Assembly (NCBI GenBank): GCA_037042185.1
Contig: JAXQJY010000025.1
Span: 496,001-560,000, forward strand
Source: Sordariomycetes sp. S80-01Y
Taxonomy: Eukaryota; Ascomycota; Sordariomycetes
DNA: 64,000 nt
Direction of reading: 5' to 3'
The notes beneath the pieces were generated by a model. That model saw nothing but the letters and a program-made list of their open reading frames with translations, was not told the origin of the DNA and did not search any database. Each line of letters starts with the position of its first letter. The stretch's first letter is position 1. Shown piece by piece: positions 45,088-57,248 of this stretch. A program made the translations under genes and the position numbers.

Positions 45088-46513
45088 ATGCGCTCCTTTG
45101 CCTTCATCGCCGGCCTCCTGGGCACGGCTGCCGCCGCTCCCTTTGTGCACCTGGGCAACGTCAACACCATGAACAATGTCCGCCGTGCCAAGAACGACTA
45201 CACCCGCATCGACACGAGCACCGACACCAAGGTCATCGTGACCAAGGAGAACACCCTCAACGGCACCGTCGCCGGTGACAAGACCTTCTCCATCCAGGCT
45301 GCTGAGCTCAAGGACCCTGTTGTTCAGCAGATCAACATGAACATTGTCAACAACCTCGGCGAGGGCGTCAACTCGTATTTCGTAAGTGACTTTGCTAGTC
45401 CTGGCCGGGAATCCGTGCTGACATCGGGAACAGTCTGCTGCCGATTCTGAGGGCAAGGTCTTCTTCCTGGCTGCTGATGGCTCGCTCATCTACCCCAGCT
45501 CTGGAGGCTCCGAGATCCCCGTGCCCATCACCGAGAACATTGCTATTCCCATGCCTGCTCTCGGCGAATCCCTGGACATCACCGTCCCTGTTGCCTTCTC
45601 TTCCGGTCGTCTCTACTTCGTTGAGGGCGAGCTCTCCTTCTCCATTGTCTCCATCGGCAACGGCGGCGAGGGTCTTGTTCAGCCCTCTCTCTCCCTCGAG
45701 GACCCGGCCCGCAACCTGAACTGGGGTTTCGTCGAGATGACCCTCACCGAGACGGGCGAGATCTGGTCCAACATCTCCTACGTCGACTTCATCGGCATCA
45801 TCATGTCCATGATCCTGCGCTCCGGCGACGGCAGCGAGCAGGAGGTCATCGGTCTCGGCTCCGACGGTGTCACCAAGGTCTGCGAGGGTCTTCAGGCTCA
45901 GGCTTCCGCCGACGGTCGCGAGTGGGCTGGCATGTGCATTGCCCGCGAGGACGGTACTCCCCTCCGTGTTCTGTCCCCCGAGGACTACTCCGACTTCATC
46001 CAGGACGGCGGCTTCGACGACTACTGGACCCAGTACGTCGACGACGTCTGGGCCAAGTACAGCTCCGAGCCCCTCACCATCAACACCCAGGCCGACGCCG
46101 GCGAGGTCCAGTGCCAGGTCAACGGCGACCTCCTCGAGTGCGCTGGTGACAACCGCGGCTACCCCAAGCCCGTCGCCCAGGACATCTGGGGCTGCAACAG
46201 CGGTCCCTTCGGCATCATCGAGGGCGACAACGCCGTCCACTACGCCGTCGTGCCCCGTCTCTGCGCTGCCTTCGCCCGCTCGACCCTCCTCATCGAGGGC
46301 GGCAACTACCAGCCCGGCCAGAGCGCCGACGAGTTCTACACTGTCGACCCTACCTTCCACTACGCGCGCATCGTCCACGAGAACCAGATCGACGGCAAGG
46401 GCTACGCCTTCGCCTACGACGACGTTGTTGCCGACGGCGAGGAGGACCCCGCTGGCCTCGTCACTTCCCAGGACCCCGAGCTCCTCACCTTCTTCATCGG
46501 CGGAAGCCAGTAG
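45088..46513 (+). CDS. secreted GH64 beta-1,3-glucanase
   Basis: Two exons, 45088-45381 and 45434-46513, with a 52-nt intron (GTAAGT, GTGCTGACAT, AACAG) encode 457 residues. A signal peptide (about 1-17, cleavage near AAAAP) precedes a linker to about 75. The rest matches fungal glycoside hydrolase family 64: LNWGFVEMTLTETGEIWSNISYVDFIGI, CEGLQAQASADGREWAGMCIAREDG, DNRGYPKPVAQDIWGCNSGPF and FHYARIVHENQIDGKGYAFAYDDV. GH64 enzymes release laminaripentaose-like oligomers from beta-1,3-glucan and have a thaumatin-like fold. The codons are strongly C-ending, as in highly expressed genes. Likely roles are remodelling of the fungus's own wall or attack on other fungi. The long antisense frame (386 codons) is a by-product of this codon use. 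Confidence 0.92.
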
Positions 46514-48759: not shown

Positions 48760-49835
48760 ATGAGACCTCAACTCCTTCGTTCCTCTGCTCGATCCCTCGG
48801 ACTCAACTCGAGACGATACCGGTGAGACACCGCCGCCAAGCCGCAGCTGGCAATGTCCGCAACGCCTGTTCCGATGCTGACCAATCTAGACAACTAGCCC
48901 AAAGACTCGGAAGCGTGAGGGTGACGAGCGCGTCAAAGTCCGCAGCGAGGGGCCTTACTACTTCATCATCCCCTCGGGTCGTCGCTCGCTCTGTCGCCTC
49001 TCACAATCCCGCCCCGAGCACCCGCAAAGCATTCGTTTCCATCGCAAAGATGGCCGAGCTCAAGTCCATCATCACGCCCGAGCTGCTGGCGAGCGTTCGC
49101 GACTTCTGGTTCGAGCACGTCAAGAACGAGGATGATCTGATCCTGCCATCCCAGGACGTCTTCATGCCGTGGTTCGCGGGCGGCGAGTTCGACAAGCGCT
49201 GCGTCCAGAAGTTCCACGCCCCCCTCGACGCCATCAAGGCCACCGGAATTGACAACGGGGACGACCTTCTGAAGGTCGTCGACCCGCAGAGCCCTCTTGA
49301 CTGGCTGAGCCTGGTAATCCTGCTGGACCAGATGCCGCGGAACTGCTACCGTGGCGACGAGTCCAAAATTGTCTTCAACTACTTCGACCCCATCTCGCTC
49401 GGCGTCGCCCAAGCAGCGGCCGCAAAGCAGATCAACGCCATTCCGGAGATCCGCTGGGTGCTCGGCCGTAGATTCTGGTTCAACCTCCCCTTCACCCACT
49501 CCGAATCAGTCGAGATGCACGAGAAGGCGATGCAAGGGTGCAAACTCCTGACCAAGGACGTGATCGATCTGCTCGAGCACCCCGAGGTTGAGGGGCAGGA
49601 CGGGCATCGGGCTCGCGCGGCGCAGCTCTACAAGGGACAGGGCGAAAAGGCCCGCAACGTTGCCGAGATGACGTCCAAGGCGGAAAAGGATCACTTCGAC
49701 ATCATCAAGCAGTTCGGGAGGTATCCGCACAGGAACAAGCCGCTGGGCAGGGAGCCGACGGCTGAAGAGCTCAAGTTTTTGGCCGAGGGCGGCGCCACGT
49801 TCGCACCACCCCCGCCGAAGGAGGAGCAGGCTTAG
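48760..49835 (+). CDS. DUF924 family protein with mitochondrial-type presequence
   Basis: Exons 48760-48821 and 48890-49835, with a 68-nt intron ending GCTGACCAATCTAG, give 335 residues. Splicing adds MRPQLLRSSARSLGLNSRRYR, an Arg/Ser/Leu-rich, acid-free N-terminus typical of mitochondrial presequences; an internal ATG at 49050 (MAELKS) would give a cytosolic form of 261 residues. The DUF924 core is clear: VRDFWFEHV, LVILLDQMPRNCYRGDESKIVFNYFD, and a helical repeat region FNLPFTHSESVEMHEKAM. Bacterial and fungal relatives have a TPR-like helical fold and no established function. The end is Pro-rich (PPPPKEEQA). Confidence 0.88.
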
Positions 49836-50831
49836 ATAAGGAACATGTGTGAATAGACGATTATAGACGACTTCGTGCGATTTGTCCGCTGTGCTTCGAT
49901 GGTCTGCGTGCCCCTGAGCGTCGCTCTCAGCCGCACCGAGCTGCTGCCTGCGGTGCCTAGCGCCGCACAGCCTTTGACTCAACCGAGGACTACCTTCCAA
50001 CCTTTATAACGTGAACGAAGCGAACTGTTCTCAGCCAGCAATGGCACATGGTCTATTTGAACAATTACAGAGAAAATCAGCATGGTCCCTGCACAAGGAT
50101 GACTATTCGACTCTCAAAGAGCTCGGGTTTTTTTGCCCGTACTCTTCTTTTTTGACGTTTGGCAGCTCCCAGTTGGCGCCATGACTATTTTAATGGTCCC
50201 AGTGACCCAGCTCAGGTTCAAATGAAGACGATTTAAAGCCATTTTCGAGAGACGTGGTTCAGTTCCCCCTTGGCCGTACTATGGTACCGTCACATATATG
50301 GTCTTGATTGCGCTGGCTCATGGGCACTGGACCTAAGAGTGACAATCACCGAGTACAAATTGAAGGTGTTAAACTCCAATGAAAAGACTCTCTAGAATAT
50401 CAGAATGTCACAGTGAGTGGATGAGGACAAGCTTCGCAAGCGTAAACTATCATAATTAACTTGAAACTGACATGTTCCTGCTCGCGTGGCAGCTTACCAC
50501 GTGCGTTGTCATGACCGACTACCAAGGGCCAAAGCAGCACGACACACGACCTTCCCACGGAGCCGGATTGTGATTGAGAAGAGACCCATAGATCTGGTGT
50601 TGATAGGGCGTCCGTATCAATGACTGCTCCTTCCCAGGGCTACGCAGTCCGACAAGCTTTCTAACTGTAATATCAAACCTTGCCACCCAGATTTCACGCA
50701 CTCTAACATGTAGAATTCAGAGTACGTGGCTTTATAGAATCAATAGCACCCAAGAACATCCAGATCGCCCTCTCCCAACTGCATCAAACACAGTGGCCAT
50801 CTCAGTCAAGAAAAAGCATCACATCGCCATC
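49836..50831. other. intergenic, no gene seen
   Basis: Mostly AT-richer DNA with no frame of note. The final part is the promoter of the pseudo-carboxypeptidase gene. Confidence 0.5.
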
Positions 50832-53800
50832 ATGATGCACCTCCTCCAGGCCCTGGTTGCTATTGGCAGCTTCTTTCCCCAGCGCACCGCCGCCATTCCC
50901 ATCAACAGAAAGGTTGTGGAGAACAATGTTGTCGTGAGTAGAAGCCACGGTCCCGTGGGCAACGGCGAGTATGTCGAGACCCATCTCGGGCAGTGGGCGT
51001 CCGATACCAAGCTCTGCGGAGAGTCTCCCGGGCAGCATGCCGGCTATATCAACGTCAACGATCTCAATGGTAGTGATTCCGGTTACCGATGACCCTGAGC
51101 TTGTGCTGACATTAACAGCAAATGACACGCTCAACATGGCCTTCTGGTTCTTCGAGGCCTTCGAGGACAACGAGGAGACTCCCCTGTATATCATAATCGG
51201 CGGGGAGGTTGGAGTTCCCGTGTCCAAGTCCGTCTTTGGACCTAACGGTCCCTGCGTCGTCACCGCGGATATAAACACAATGCCCGAAGAAGGTCAACAT
51301 TCCCACCGAGACTGGACTAACACCCTGTACATCGAAAGCCCTATCGGCCTGGGTTTCAGCTACGCCGAAGGCGCCGCTGTGGCCGACCGCACCGAGGAGG
51401 AGTACCTGTACACCTTCATCCAGCGCTTCTACGAGAGCTTCCCTCAATATGTAAAACGTCGAGTTCTGATCGAGGCTTTCGATCTCGGTGCCAAGGCCGC
51501 AACCAAGCTCACCAAATCTATCATCACCCAGAATGATGTTATCGCGAAAGGCGAGCAAGAAGGCTTCGACGTCAAGCTGGATTCCCTCATACTGATCAGC
51601 CCGTACATCGACCCGGCGGTCCAGGTCTCTTACACCCCCCAGGTGTACTGGAGCAACGCCCTGGGTGCGCCCTTCTTGAGCCAGACCAAGGCCGGCGATT
51701 TCACAGGCAGGTTCGACCTTTGGCGGCACCAGCACTTCGGTGACGAGGTAAAAGGCAGCCCCGAACGCAACGACAAGCGGCGCATGCAGCGCTTCATGGA
51801 GCTGTGGCACGGCGTTACGGAAGGCTACGACGCCCACAAGCACAGGTACCCCGACATCGATCCGTTCAACATCCGCGAGGTGAGACAGGATCGTGTGTCG
51901 GAGTTCCTCTACCACTCACCCGAGAACGATGCCGTCCAAAAATGGCTGCGGGACGGCGACAACCAGCGCAAGATTGGCTTTGTGCCCTTCGCTGATGCTG
52001 GGAAGGATCACGCTACCTTCAGCAGACAACACGTCGACGACATGCTGAACAACACCTGTAAGTCCAGGTTTTCTGTTTAGACTGGACAATGGACTGACCA
52101 TATAGTCTTCGATTCGACTCAGGACGAATTCGCTCACATTGTCGCGAGCAAGGTCCAAGTCGTCCTGGTTGGAGGAGACATGGATGCTGTCACTAGCTGG
52201 ATGAGCCTCTTCAACGTCGCCTTCCGCACTCCAGGCGTCAAGGCGTTCCTAGAAGCCGCCTACCAGCCTTTCCAAGAGGGCCTTACCGAGGGGGAGAAGT
52301 CGTCGGAAGACCCTCACCGTCTCGGCGATGCCAACTCTCAAAATCGTGCTTGGATCAAAAACGGCGGCAATCTCCAGTACATCTTGATTAAGGGCGCGGG
52401 ACACGATATCTCAAGGCAAGGTAAGTTGTGGTCCAATTCATCACAGTGACGCTTTGGCTGACGGTGCAGAACCTGATCTCTTTCATGACCTTGTCAAGCA
52501 CATCGCTTTCCCCCAATCGTTGGAGCCACAGGCAATAGACGATCTCCCCGTACCCGCTAACAATTCGACTTTGGAGATTCCAAGTGAAGCGTCGAATGAA
52601 AATCAACTTCACAAGAGACAGGACCCTGAACCCAGTAAAAGACCGGAGGAGTTGCAGCTGGGGCCACTCTATAACGACGCCTTCCCGTTTGCAAGCCCAG
52701 AGGAGCTTCAGAATACGCCGCTGACCGTTGAGGGACTTGGAAGCGAACCCTTCACTCTTCCTGTCGAAACTCAAAATTTGCCCTTGAGCAAATTCGATGG
52801 AACTGCCGAACAGGCTGTGAGCGAGGCGCAGCCAGAAACCGACGGCAGCCATGCTGAACTGTCTAGCAGTCTGCGCCGAAGGGGTCCACCGACCCCTGAT
52901 CCCTCTTTGCCTGGCGCGGTCGACCCCGTTCCAAAAGGGCTCGAATCAGTTCCCAAGCTCGCCAATGCAGTTACTATTCCCGAAGGCGCCAAGGTGTTCG
53001 ACCCTACAAAGGAGCTCGGCGAGCTCTCGCGCCTGTATCACAACCCGGTCGACGGTCATCAACCCGGCGTCGAGGAAATCATAGAATCTATAAAGTCGCA
53101 CAGCGGCAGCACAACCATCAAGGGCAAGAGGCCCGACCCGCTTCGCGGCCTGGATCTTCCGCCTGGGACTGGCGCCGAGTCTCCGATGATGGTGTACAAC
53201 CTCCGCCCGTTGCCTATCTCCCAGTGGCAAGAGCTTCGCTTGGCTGCCCACAAGGCACTCGCCGAGACGGGGTATCAGCACGTGGGTGGCTCCCTGAAGG
53301 AGGACTATCTCGACTGGCTCATGAACACGGATCTGCCGCTCAGCCGCTCAGTGAGCTGGGATCTCGAGAGGGCGCAGGGCGTGGAAAAGTGGATTATGGA
53401 TCCCGTTGAGGCTGTAGATCCCCTCCAGCTTCCGGTGGATATGCCCAAGCCCGGAGGCATGTCCGGCAAGACCGCGGCCAAGGTTGCCGGAGGTACCGCT
53501 GTCGTGGGAGGAATAGCTGGAGGCATCGCCGGTGGCGTCAGCGGAGGGGGCGGTCAGGCTGCCGCAGGCATTGCTAGTGCTGCCAGAGGTGTCGTGGACG
53601 GAGCTGGCACTGCCGCTGGAGGTGTTGCCGAGGGTGTTGGTACAGCAGCTGGAGTCGCGGAGGGAGTCGGCACAGCTGCGGGAGGTGTCGCTGAGGGCGT
53701 TGGCACAGCGGCTGGAGTCGCCGAGGGTGTCGGGTCTGCTGCGGGAGGCGTCGTTGACGGCGTTGGATCTACCGCTGGAGGTGTCATGGAGGGCGTTGGC

Positions 53801-54703
53801 GGAGCCCTCAATGGGTTGATACCAGGAGGCGACGACGACGACGATGAAGGGGGTGGCAACGGGGGCGGCGGCGGCGGCAAGAAGCATCATCATCATGACC
53901 AGGGCAAACATGATGAAAAAAAGGTTGATGGCAAGAGCAACAAGGCCGCGGGGGACAAGGACGGTGGTGATAAGAAGGCTGAGAAGGCTGAAGCCCAACG
54001 GGTGGTCGAGGGAGACGAGGACGACGACGGTGACTACGATAAGCAAGACCGCAGGATCCGCAAGCAGCAAGAGAAGGAAGCCAAGCAGGAGAAGAAGGAG
54101 TTCAACCGCAAGGCCAAGGAGATCAAGAAGACGGCCCAGCGGGAGAGCAAAGAGGCAAAGCAGGCCCTCAAGGACGCCAAACTCGAGCACAAGGGTGCCA
54201 AGAAGGAGTTCAAGATCAACAAGAAGGAGGGCAAGAAGGCTCTCAAGCCCGTCAAGCCCGCCGAGAAGAAGGCTAAGCAGGCTTACAAGAAGGCCAGCAA
54301 CAAGGCCAAGGGCGCGAAGAAACCAGCCAAGAAGGTCCTGAAGAAGATCAAGCAGGCGGCCGAGGCGGAGCAGAGAGCCCAGGAGGCGATCGAAATGGCC
54401 ATGGATGGCTCCGTCGGCCAGGCCGTCACGGCATCGCACGACTATGAGGTTGCCCACGAGCTCGAGAAGCAGCTGAAGCAGGCGGCTGGAAAGGCTGACG
54501 CGAGGACCTTTGAGGCCGAGAACCGCTTCAAGGAGGCCAAGGAGGACATGGAGAAGCTGTCTGAGGATGCCGAGGAGAAGAGCGGCTATGCCAAGGCCAT
54601 CACCAAGGGCACCATTCCCATGGAAGATGCAATCGCGGCACAGCTTGAAAAGGAGGCTGGTAATGCTGGTGTCTCTGAGCGCGAGGGCGCCGAGCAGGCC
54701 TAG
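50832..54703 (+). CDS. secreted pseudo-serine carboxypeptidase fused to Gly/Ala repeats and a Lys-rich tail
   Basis: Four exons (50832-51069, 51119-52057, 52106-52420, 52470-54703) with introns of 49, 48 and 49 nt, each with a CTGAC-type branch, give 1241 residues. A signal peptide (about 1-21) leads to a peptidase S10-like domain (about 40-520): HAGYINVND, LNMAFWFFEAFED, WTNTLYIESPIGLGFSY, VVLVGGDMDAV (Asp419) and IKGAGHDISRQEP (His492). The nucleophile motif GESYxG is replaced by IEAFDLG (197-203), with Ala199 where Ser is expected, and the oxyanion-hole NGGPGCSS is lost. So the Asp and His of the triad remain but the Ser does not: probably a non-catalytic binding protein. Residues about 520-830 are Pro/Glu-rich and unique. 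Then come Gly/Ala-rich repeats (about 835-948), an Asp run, a His run, and a Lys/Glu coiled-coil-like tail (about 985-1220). No known protein with this layout comes to mind. Confidence 0.85.
53590..53812 (+). repeat. in-frame tandem repeat coding for (G)GVAEGVGTAA units
   Basis: Six or seven 30-33 nt units inside the last exon of the pseudo-carboxypeptidase gene. They encode alternating GVAEGVGTAA and GGVAEGVGTAA; later units drift to GGVVDGVGSTA and GGVMEGVGGA. Synonymous third-base differences between units show they are not a very recent expansion. Confidence 0.9.
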
Positions 54704-55214
54704 AGGGGAGGTAATAAACTGATATTCGACTTGCGACACCACGCTTGGCGGTAGTAATAGTAGACCACATACTTAGCTGGTCATAATGAATCCATAATGC
54801 AAAACGGCATGGGCGATGAGCATGGTGTCCCAGCCTCGGCTGGACCGTGAAAGTGAAAGCCGTCCTTCCACCAGGAGGTGCGACGACCGCAGAATTGAAT
54901 TCGATCCGATTGAGACGAGTAGCGCACGGCATGTGTCATCTCCAGATGACATGCGACGCCAGATGTAGGGAAATGCCGGCCACGTTCGCGGTGCAGCCCA
55001 TCTGCGACACGCCCCGTTCCACCCTTGTCGCGGCATCGACAGGGCGCTCGACGACCATAACCAAAGACTCCTCCCACCGACTTCTTCTCTTCTTCGCCAT
55101 TCCGCTCATTCAAACTCAACGCTCTTTGATCTTTCTCTTTTCACTTCTCAGCTCGCGGGCGAGCCCTTTTTCCTCCCTCCACCCTAATAATCCCACCTCT
55201 CCCCATCCCTCACC
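54704..55214. other. intergenic; promoter of small membrane protein gene
   Basis: Minus-strand frames run through here (54600-55119) but are extensions of antisense frames of the Lys-rich exon. The last 150 bases are a pyrimidine-rich leader. Confidence 0.5.
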
Positions 55215-55706: not shown

Positions 55707-57248
55707 TCAACCAACCAACGTATTGCGACGGCTCCGGTCCGGTCGCGTATCCTTACGTCCAATGATGGTCTCGAGCGTTTGTCGAAGAGCATTGCCGTCA
55801 TAGCGCCCGCCGCGCCCTGATTCGGCTTTGGGTCCATATACCCTTGTAGCATCAATACCGAGATCTGTGAACTGCTTCTTGTCGACAACGGGCGCTGTGG
55901 CACCCTCGATGTATATGACGTGCGTGACATACTTCCAATACTGATCTTTTCCCGGCCGCGGAATGCCTCTCGACTCAGCACAGGCGTTAGCTATGGCACC
56001 AACAAAGTCCAAGCCCGTAAAGGGTGCATCCGAGGGGCCTGTCTCACGGTCCCTGGTTCCGTTGAGGATGAGGATCTTGTTGCGAATGCTGGGGTTTGCG
56101 ATAGCCTCGCCCACTCCCTTCAGCACTATGTTGGGAATGAGGGAGGTGAAAAGCGAGCCAATGCTGTAGACAATTGTATTTGCACCCCGCAAGGACTCCA
56201 GAACTCGAGGATTGGCCGGGATGCGGATCTCCTGGCCGTAGGGGTTGATGTACCAAAGGCGATCGATCCTCGAAGGCAAATCCTCCTCATCATCCTTGGA
56301 GAAGGCGATTGCTGGCCGACGCAGAGCCGGCAGAGAGCCTGGTAGGTTGGCATCCTCAACTTTGTCGTCCTCCTCGGTTTCATGGTGGGCCGGGGCGATG
56401 GGGGTCTGAGTTCCGGTAGTGATGCCTGTGCCAGGCACGGCGCGGGTAGGCTCGCTAGGATGCGAGATATCGTTCTGTCCAATGATGACTGAGCCATCTT
56501 GCAGTCCGACGGCAATGTGATGAGCAAAATTTGTGTTGATAGCCGGCAAGACTGAGATATAGTCTGGCACGCTACAGATAGAGCTCAAGAGGTAGATTGC
56601 AGCTTCAAAGCTCCCCGTGAAGAGCCTGGCCCCCGTCAGGAAGAGATTGCCGATACTGGCACCGGAAAAGTCAAAACGGCTCGACGGTCGCATACGCTTG
56701 ACTACCTCAAGATTGAAGCTATTCAGATGAGACCGGATGAGCTCCCTCTTGGGCGATGAGATGTCATTCCATAGTGGGTGAGTTCCCTCCACTATCTCAT
56801 ACCATTCAGTTCGAGCACTGGCGTGCGACTTGGGCAGCCGGTGATTGAAGAAGTGCTTGATAGCAGCCGTTTCTGGGTTGTCATTCTTGGGGATGAGTCG
56901 AACAAGACGCGACCTCACGTCACCAATACCTAAGCACGGTCAGGGTATACTTCGAGATAGTTAAAGGGGCGTCTTGCCTGGTCCGCCAAACACGCGGATG
57001 ATCTCGCTGGTGCTGCCACCGTTGTCCGAGATGGGGATGACATAGCTCAGATTACATCTGTTGACCTCGCGGACGTGTTCGAAGACCTCGACGAGACTGT
57101 TCGTCGCGCTGCCACCGGAGAAAACTACAATGCCACTCTGGATGCTAGGGGCTGGGCTGAGTGGTCGCTTTGGTGAAGTGGTGTGAGGCACTGGGTTGGC
57201 GCCAGTGACAGCCAGGAATGCATCACCTCGTGGCGCTGAGGCTGACAT
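55707..57248 (-). CDS. CofD-like (UPF0052) protein
   Basis: Exons 57248-56978 and 56929-55707 give 497 residues. The 48-nt intron starts with GC (GCAAGA...CCCTGAC...TTAG); removing it creates GGPGIGDVRSRLVRLIP, the conserved phosphate-binding region of the family, so the GC-AG splice is well supported. Other CofD-like marks are VVFSGGSATNSLVEVF (about 40-55), PISDNGGSTSEI (about 72-83), GNLFLTGARL and ANTIVYSIGSLFTSLIPN. CofD (2-phospho-L-lactate transferase) works in coenzyme F420 synthesis in archaea and bacteria; fungi do not make F420, so the reaction here is unknown. An acidic insertion (HETEEDDKVEDANLPG) separates the two halves. No targeting signal is obvious. Confidence 0.9.

Follow-up and report, generated by a model that had tools for sequence, protein, structure and literature searches.

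The gene and its product

Within a 64,000-nucleotide stretch of the genome of the ascomycete Sordariomycetes sp. S80-01Y (contig JAXQJY010000025.1, positions 496,001 to 560,000; G000:C8:496001-560000 in a searched genome of 30.9 Mb and 16 contigs), referred to here as the window, lies a four-exon gene whose 1241-residue product joins a head related to the S10 serine carboxypeptidases to a long tail of repeats and charged, helix-like stretches (Table 1). The head carries an aspartate, Asp201, at the position at which the family keeps its catalytic serine.

Table 1 Features of the S10-like gene and its product (coordinates are window positions)
Feature	Position	Strand	Evidence
Whole coding gene, 1241 residues	50832..54703	+	spliced translation, splice and branch sites, S10 match
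Exons 1 to 4	50832-51069, 51119-52057, 52106-52420, 52470-54703	+	spliced translation
Introns 1 to 3 (49, 48 and 49 nucleotides)	51070-51118, 52058-52105, 52421-52469	+	
Likely signal peptide, residues 1-21 (alternative start: second Met at 50835)	50832..50894	+	by eye
S10-like domain, residues 67-508, split by introns 1-3	51030..52501	+	Pfam
Oxyanion loop YIIIGGEVGV, residues 103-112, replacing ..LWLNGGPGC	51187..51216	+	five-paralogue alignment, HMM
Nucleophile elbow A199-F200-D201-L202-G203, replacing G-E-S-Y-G/A	51475..51489	+	alignments, HMMs, predicted model
Asp201 codon, Ser position	51481-51483	+	alignments, HMMs, predicted model
Asp419, aligned with catalytic Asp	52183..52185	+	alignment, HMM
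His492, aligned with catalytic His; AGHDIS replacing AGHMVP	52402..52404	+	alignment, HMM
Acidic, Pro-rich linker, residues 516-640	52523..52897	+	motif scan, shuffles
Kex2-type site LHKR↓Q	52607-52618	+	motif scan
Kex2-type site LRRR↓G	52871-52882	+	motif scan
Middle region, residues 641-830, no relative found	52898..53467	+	Pfam, PDB sequences, own genome
Gly/Ala/Val repeat stretch, residues 836-950	53483..53827	+	helical period, codon positions
Asp5, Gly-rich, His4, mixed-charge stretch, residues 951-1020	53828..54037	+	translation, no helical periodicity
Lys-rich helix-like stretch, residues 1021-1135	54038..54382	+	period, face counts
Acidic helix-like C-terminus, residues 1136-1241, and stop	54383..54703	+	period, net charge

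The gene model is coherent in its details. All three introns run from GT to AG (5' letters GTAGTG, GTAAGT and GTAAGT) and carry a branch-like CTGAC that starts 13, 12 and 12 nucleotides before their ends, a motif counted 67 times on the plus strand of the window, so that about 0.02 would be expected per 25-nucleotide stretch. Exon 4 stays open for 744 codons; with stops at the window's frequency of 3.1%, a frame of that length would arise by chance with a probability near 6e-11. An AATAAA starts at 54713, directly past the stop codon. The main argument for a single protein is that the S10 homology ends some 10 residues into exon 4, where the closing part of the Pfam match, residues 498-508, shares one uninterrupted frame with the whole tail; head and tail are accordingly read as one protein, unless transcripts say otherwise. 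Spliced translation agrees with the original prediction, made from the letters of this stretch, in its coordinates, its four exons, its intron starts at 51070, 52058 and 52421 and its length, and the shared frame bears out its view of a single secreted-type protein in which a serine-less S10 domain is followed by repeats and a Lys-rich tail. The N-terminus would serve as a signal peptide, with a hydropathy of 1.18 across the 19 residues from residue 4.

A carboxypeptidase fold with aspartate in place of serine

Searched whole against Pfam, the protein matched Peptidase_S10 (PF00450) alone, over residues 67-508 (3.6e-31; 109.4 bits against a cut-off of 21.9), and the S10 fold is present in a predicted model of the head. 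The 11 S10 profile matches in the genome could be grouped into the present gene and five others, named here after their contigs (C5, C8b at 1.56 Mb of C8, C9, C13 and C16); the head as query returned seven matches, two to its own gene and five weak ones (22-37% identity). Once the five paralogues had been spliced by hand for alignment, the closest by identity was the C9 protein (22% across 379 columns), which we take to be carboxypeptidase S1-like. The tblastn alignments pair Cys125 with a cysteine in both C9 and C13, and Cys62 with one in C13. The C13 paralogue (G000:C13:2197424-2199025, minus strand; L006), with elbow SSSYGG and His motif SGHGVGG, is another unusual S10 protein in its own right: its C-terminus is Ser/Gly-rich and then hydrophobic and, judged by eye, could be a glycosylphosphatidylinositol signal.

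Relatives from further afield came from a scan of bacterial and archaeal genomes, where at least 589 stretches matched and 17 relatives were confirmed among the matches listed; 15 of these entered the bacterial alignment, the two left out not being readable in one frame. None of 587 pattern matches to the S10 family in viral contigs was confirmed, and plasmid DNA gave no match. A tree was built from 14 rows (the query, the five paralogues and eight of the 15 bacterial proteins), across which the S1-type grouping was examined; no starred set contains the query, whose end branch is very long, at 7.46 changes per column where the median for end branches is 0.59.

The position of Asp201 is the same by each route. 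All three MAFFT modes, run with the five paralogues, set A-F-D-L-G on G-E-S-Y-G with Asp201 on Ser; Ser stands opposite Asp201 in 15 of 15 aligned bacterial relatives; and the elbow Ser is kept in all five paralogues (GESYAG in C5, GESYGG in C8b, GESYAG in C16, AESYGG in C9 and SSSYGG in C13, the last depending on the chosen splice site because an intron falls inside the motif). Two hidden Markov models (HMMs) built without the query also set Asp201 against Ser and give the elbow the top posterior grade (PP, an asterisk); the query scores 117.5 bits with the model of the 15 bacterial proteins plus the five paralogues, and 95.6 bits with that of the five paralogues by themselves. Structure prediction puts Asp201 (residue 122 of the model) in the turn between a strand at 115-121 and a helix from 124 (model numbering), in a structure with a mean predicted local distance difference test score (pLDDT) of 60.7 and 168 of 434 residues below 50. 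The original prediction had recognised that the serine nucleophile was missing but had put Ala199 where it was expected. Ala199 falls instead on the Gly of G-E-S-Y-G, and it was rejected as the nucleophile position since the tblastn pieces that reach the elbow (those of C5, C8b and C9; the C13 and C16 pieces end before it) and all alignments put Asp201 on Ser.

Asp419 and His492, by contrast with the elbow, match the catalytic Asp and His in alignments and HMMs, and in this respect the S10-like fold first described from the letters stands with both residues kept. The pocket around them is altered. In carboxypeptidase numbering, Asn51 has become Gly107, Gly53 Glu109 and Cys56 Val112, with Gly52 kept as Gly108, while at the elbow Glu145, Ser146 and Tyr147 have become Phe200, Asp201 and Leu202; in terms of motifs, LWLNGGPGC reads IIIGGEVGV, GESY reads AFDL, CNW reads TSW and AGHMVP reads AGHDIS. 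The ligand contacts of wheat carboxypeptidase 1WHT include N51, G52, G53, C56, E145, S146 and Y147, according to an excerpt of PMC7034887. With that numbering transferred to the query by motif, six of these seven oxyanion-zone and nucleophile-zone contacts are altered and only G52 is kept.

Fold and order of motifs are thus common to the query and the fungal S10 serine carboxypeptidases, from which it differs by Asp201 for Ser, by the six altered contacts and by about 730 extra residues. According to PMC5567314, fungal serine protease families consist for the most part of single-domain proteins whose active sites are conserved, though the set surveyed had first been cleared of likely inactive homologues; Aspergillus niger has 12 putatively active S10 peptidases with the motifs GESYA, TESTG and AESYG (excerpt of PMC7804941). 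For plants, PMC1560137 reports that the S10 proteins of Arabidopsis and rice almost always consist of a single domain, that a few from rice have extra domains, and that apparently inactive serine protease homologues occur. Neither serine protease homologues without activity nor S10 proteins carrying additional parts are new in outline; among the titles and abstract openings listed from the open PMC literature, none named an S10 protein that combines Asp in the Ser position with a tail of this kind, which is not proof of absence.

Linker, middle region and helix-like tail

Behind the head, the linker holds two of the protein's three matches (191, 544 and 632) to a Kex2-type motif, defined as hydrophobic-x-Lys/Arg-Arg not before Pro; the third, VKRR at 191, lies inside the S10 head. 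Residues 515-840 contain two such sites against 0.19 expected, and two or more arose in 1.4% of 20000 shuffles. The genome has one match to a kexin-type P-domain. Linker and middle region together (514-841) gave no Pfam match and were found at a single place in the genome; against PDB sequences the middle region reached at best 9i25 at an E-value of 0.71, taken as chance, and it gave no pattern match in viral contigs.

Two tail stretches, of 115 residues each, are strongly periodic in the manner of a helix. Hydropathy repeats every 3.58 residues in the Gly/Ala/Val stretch (z 8.5; 0 of 1000 shuffles), every 3.56 in the Lys-rich stretch (z 6.7; 0 of 1000) and every 3.56 in the acidic C-terminus (z 2.9; 3 of 1000). 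In the head, the linker and residues 951-1020 periodicity was not above shuffles (519, 225 and 774 of 1000, respectively), and in the middle region, 641-830, it was borderline (54 of 1000). In the Lys-rich helix-like stretch, Lys is concentrated on one face (16 and 11 residues in neighbouring sixths) and Ala on the opposite face (10 and 6); net charge is +19 for residues 1009-1140 and -10 for 1141-1241. The translation contains all three segments that had been noticed earlier, namely the repeats of Gly and Ala, the stretch of Asp, Gly and His, and the tail rich in Lys; the 'coiled tail' is more aptly described as two to three stretches with amphipathic-helix periodicity.

The repeats of the Gly/Ala/Val stretch are built of units of 10 and 11 residues, the top autocorrelations across residues 836-950 lying at 21, 11 and 10. 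Six consecutive, gap-free units (877-940; the less regular stretches before and after were not counted) gave 156 pairwise comparisons for each codon position, of which 18 differed at position 1, 8 at position 2 and 86 at position 3; the variable columns numbered 3, 1 and 10 of 11, in that order (Fisher p = 1e-4). The proportions of nonsynonymous and synonymous differences (pN and pS) are 0.10 and 0.56 and dN/dS is 0.11, with the optional second Gly left out and with pN biased downward because the units were chosen by protein pattern. That the differences fall mainly at third positions is most simply read as selection keeping the protein sequence of the repeats. Tandem short units with a helical period are also the mark of the amphipathic helices of perilipin 4 and alpha-synuclein; those repeats have 11 residues (as given in an excerpt of PMC5889406), whereas the units here partly alternate between 10 and 11, are Gly-rich and belong to a secreted-type protein.

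Neither the middle nor the tail found a relative in its own genome, Pfam or PDB sequences. The Lys-rich tail, present at one place only in the genome, drew from Pfam HAM1_C alone (E 0.04; 14.4 bits against a cut-off of 27) and the repeats DUF5610 alone (E 2.9), both taken as chance, and the tail had no relative among PDB sequences up to an E-value of 1.

Genomic neighbourhood

Upstream of the gene on the plus strand stand a beta-1,3-glucanase frame (Glyco_hydro_64; 45422-46513, 2.6e-116) about 4 kb away, a DUF924 frame just upstream (49044-49832, 5e-43) and, some 700 bases upstream, a U6 spliceosomal RNA gene (50034-50133; 59.1 bits against a gathering threshold of 44). A CofD-like frame (55707-56939, minus strand, 2.1e-28), of a family named after 2-phospho-L-lactate transferase, occurs here in an apparently fungal genome, whose short introns and gene content would fit a filamentous fungus. 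Opposite exon 4 runs a Leu-rich open frame of 474 codons (53348-54772, minus strand), which is most likely a mirror of the Lys and Gly codons and not a gene.

A proposed escort and binding head for a non-globular tail

Taken on its sequence, the protein is probably a carrier or binder rather than an ordinary enzyme, because the catalytic Ser has been lost to Asp and because the tail is long and helix-like. The specific form of this reading that we favour, tentatively and at odds of roughly two in five, is of a secretory-pathway protein whose S10-like head has given up carboxypeptidase activity and works instead as a folded domain that escorts, and provides binding for, a long non-globular tail. 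The head would fold in the endoplasmic reticulum and conduct the tail through the Golgi; there Kex2 may cleave both linker sites, LHKR↓Q and LRRR↓G. Free or still attached, the 606 residues that follow the second site would then assemble through their Gly/Val stripe, while the Lys stripe would bind polyanions, for which acidic glycans, phosphomannan, acidic lipid surfaces and nucleic acid are candidates. The site of binding or display could be the cell wall or some other surface, extracellular or vacuolar. Polyanion binding, which had been suggested from the letters at the outset together with a putative receptor or scaffold role, fits the one-sided periodicity of Lys.

The escort role is modelled on thyroglobulin, whose cholinesterase-like domain lacks the catalytic Ser and may offer a parallel for a head that chaperones the rest of its own protein. 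Like the query it is a secretory protein with a hydrolase-like domain, there an intramolecular chaperone that rescues transport of the remaining protein even when expressed apart (as stated in the accessible text of PMC9657758); that domain belongs to a different hydrolase family and is C-terminal, where the query's head is N-terminal and its chaperone role would be by analogy.

Several points weigh against this proposal. It is drawn from one gene in one genome, read from sequence; the escort role is an analogy and the ligand hypothetical; the signal peptide was judged by eye; and the Kex2 sites are short motifs, two of which are reached by 1.4% of shuffles. Mean pLDDT is just 53 and 62 in the Asp419 and His492 blocks, so that the model does not establish the geometry of the triad. 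Third-position guanine plus cytosine (GC) content varies along the gene, at 0.49 for the repeats, 0.53 for the linker, 0.72 for the head and 0.87 for 1009-1140, the pN of the repeats carries the bias given above, and the very long branch of the head fits decay as well as new function.

Alternative readings

A membrane version, which we consider unlikely, has a lumenal head, a Gly/Ala/Val segment at 836-854 crossing the membrane and a cytosolic Lys-rich tail, in the manner of Kex1. Residues 836-854 do have the highest 19-residue hydropathy of the whole protein, 1.53, and the C16 paralogue, a carboxypeptidase of the Kex1 type (a type represented in PDB by 1ac5), reads by eye as an S10 domain with an acidic stretch behind it, then a single hydrophobic segment and a tail of charged residues. 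The peak nevertheless falls short of the usual transmembrane cut-off of 1.6 and makes a weak candidate for an anchor, and the Gly/Ala stretch runs on for about 95 residues, Glu and Asp included. C16, moreover, keeps GESYAG and one clear hydrophobic segment, in place of which the query has Gly/Ala/Val repeats and a Lys stretch.

It is also rather improbable that the S10 domain is merely a carrier for an active product released by Kex2, be it the middle region together with the tail or the piece of 88 residues that lies between the sites. Both motif matches outside the folded head sit in the linker, and the genome has its kexin-type P-domain match; cleavage is a prediction, however, and the repeats have no Kex2-type sites between them, unlike Kex2-processed repeat proteins as abstracts portray them. 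Processing of that repeat type was rejected, with none of the three matches falling among the repeats.

Whether the head is dead as an enzyme bears on a further possibility. It had been called non-catalytic, and the loss of Ser speaks for that, but Asp-Asp-His in an alpha/beta-hydrolase fold is not by itself proof of a dead enzyme. The S10 fold might have been rebuilt as an Asp-nucleophile hydrolase, in which Asp201 would attack, Asp419 and His492 activate water, and Glu109 stand in the oxyanion loop; the chemistry would resemble that of haloalkane dehalogenases and epoxide hydrolases, which have an Asp-Asp-His triad, from a different family, and the Gly/Val and Lys helical tail would anchor the enzyme to surfaces. 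Asp sits at the Ser position in a small-x-Nuc-x-Gly elbow, the catalytic Asp and His are kept by sequence, and Glu109, at Gly53, is presumably the equivalent of Glu56 of haloalkane dehalogenase 1BE0, an equation made from motifs. In 1BE0 the oxyanion-zone contact is Glu56 and the elbow nucleophile Asp124 (in the part of PMC7034887 available). The query nonetheless belongs to the S10 family by sequence and has Leu202, not Trp, after the nucleophile, and we hold this reading to be improbable.

Decay of a duplicated carboxypeptidase that is losing its function would account for the long end branch and for an active site most of which has changed; 1241 open codons, three sound introns and repeats that differ mainly at third positions make it very improbable. 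That the model joins two genes or is mis-spliced, as the varying third-position GC might hint, is the least probable of all, given that exon 4 encodes the end of the S10 domain and the tail in a single frame and that the branch-like CTGAC stands at like distance in all three introns.

Implications

The prediction made here is narrow, resting on one residue, Asp201, and one tail. Were the Asp-nucleophile reading true, it would show Asp-nucleophile chemistry arising anew. If instead the head is the escort and binding domain that we favour, then the secreted S10 fold would be reusable in fungi as a carrier or binder, through exchange of Ser for Asp, a new pocket and the addition of a long helical tail.

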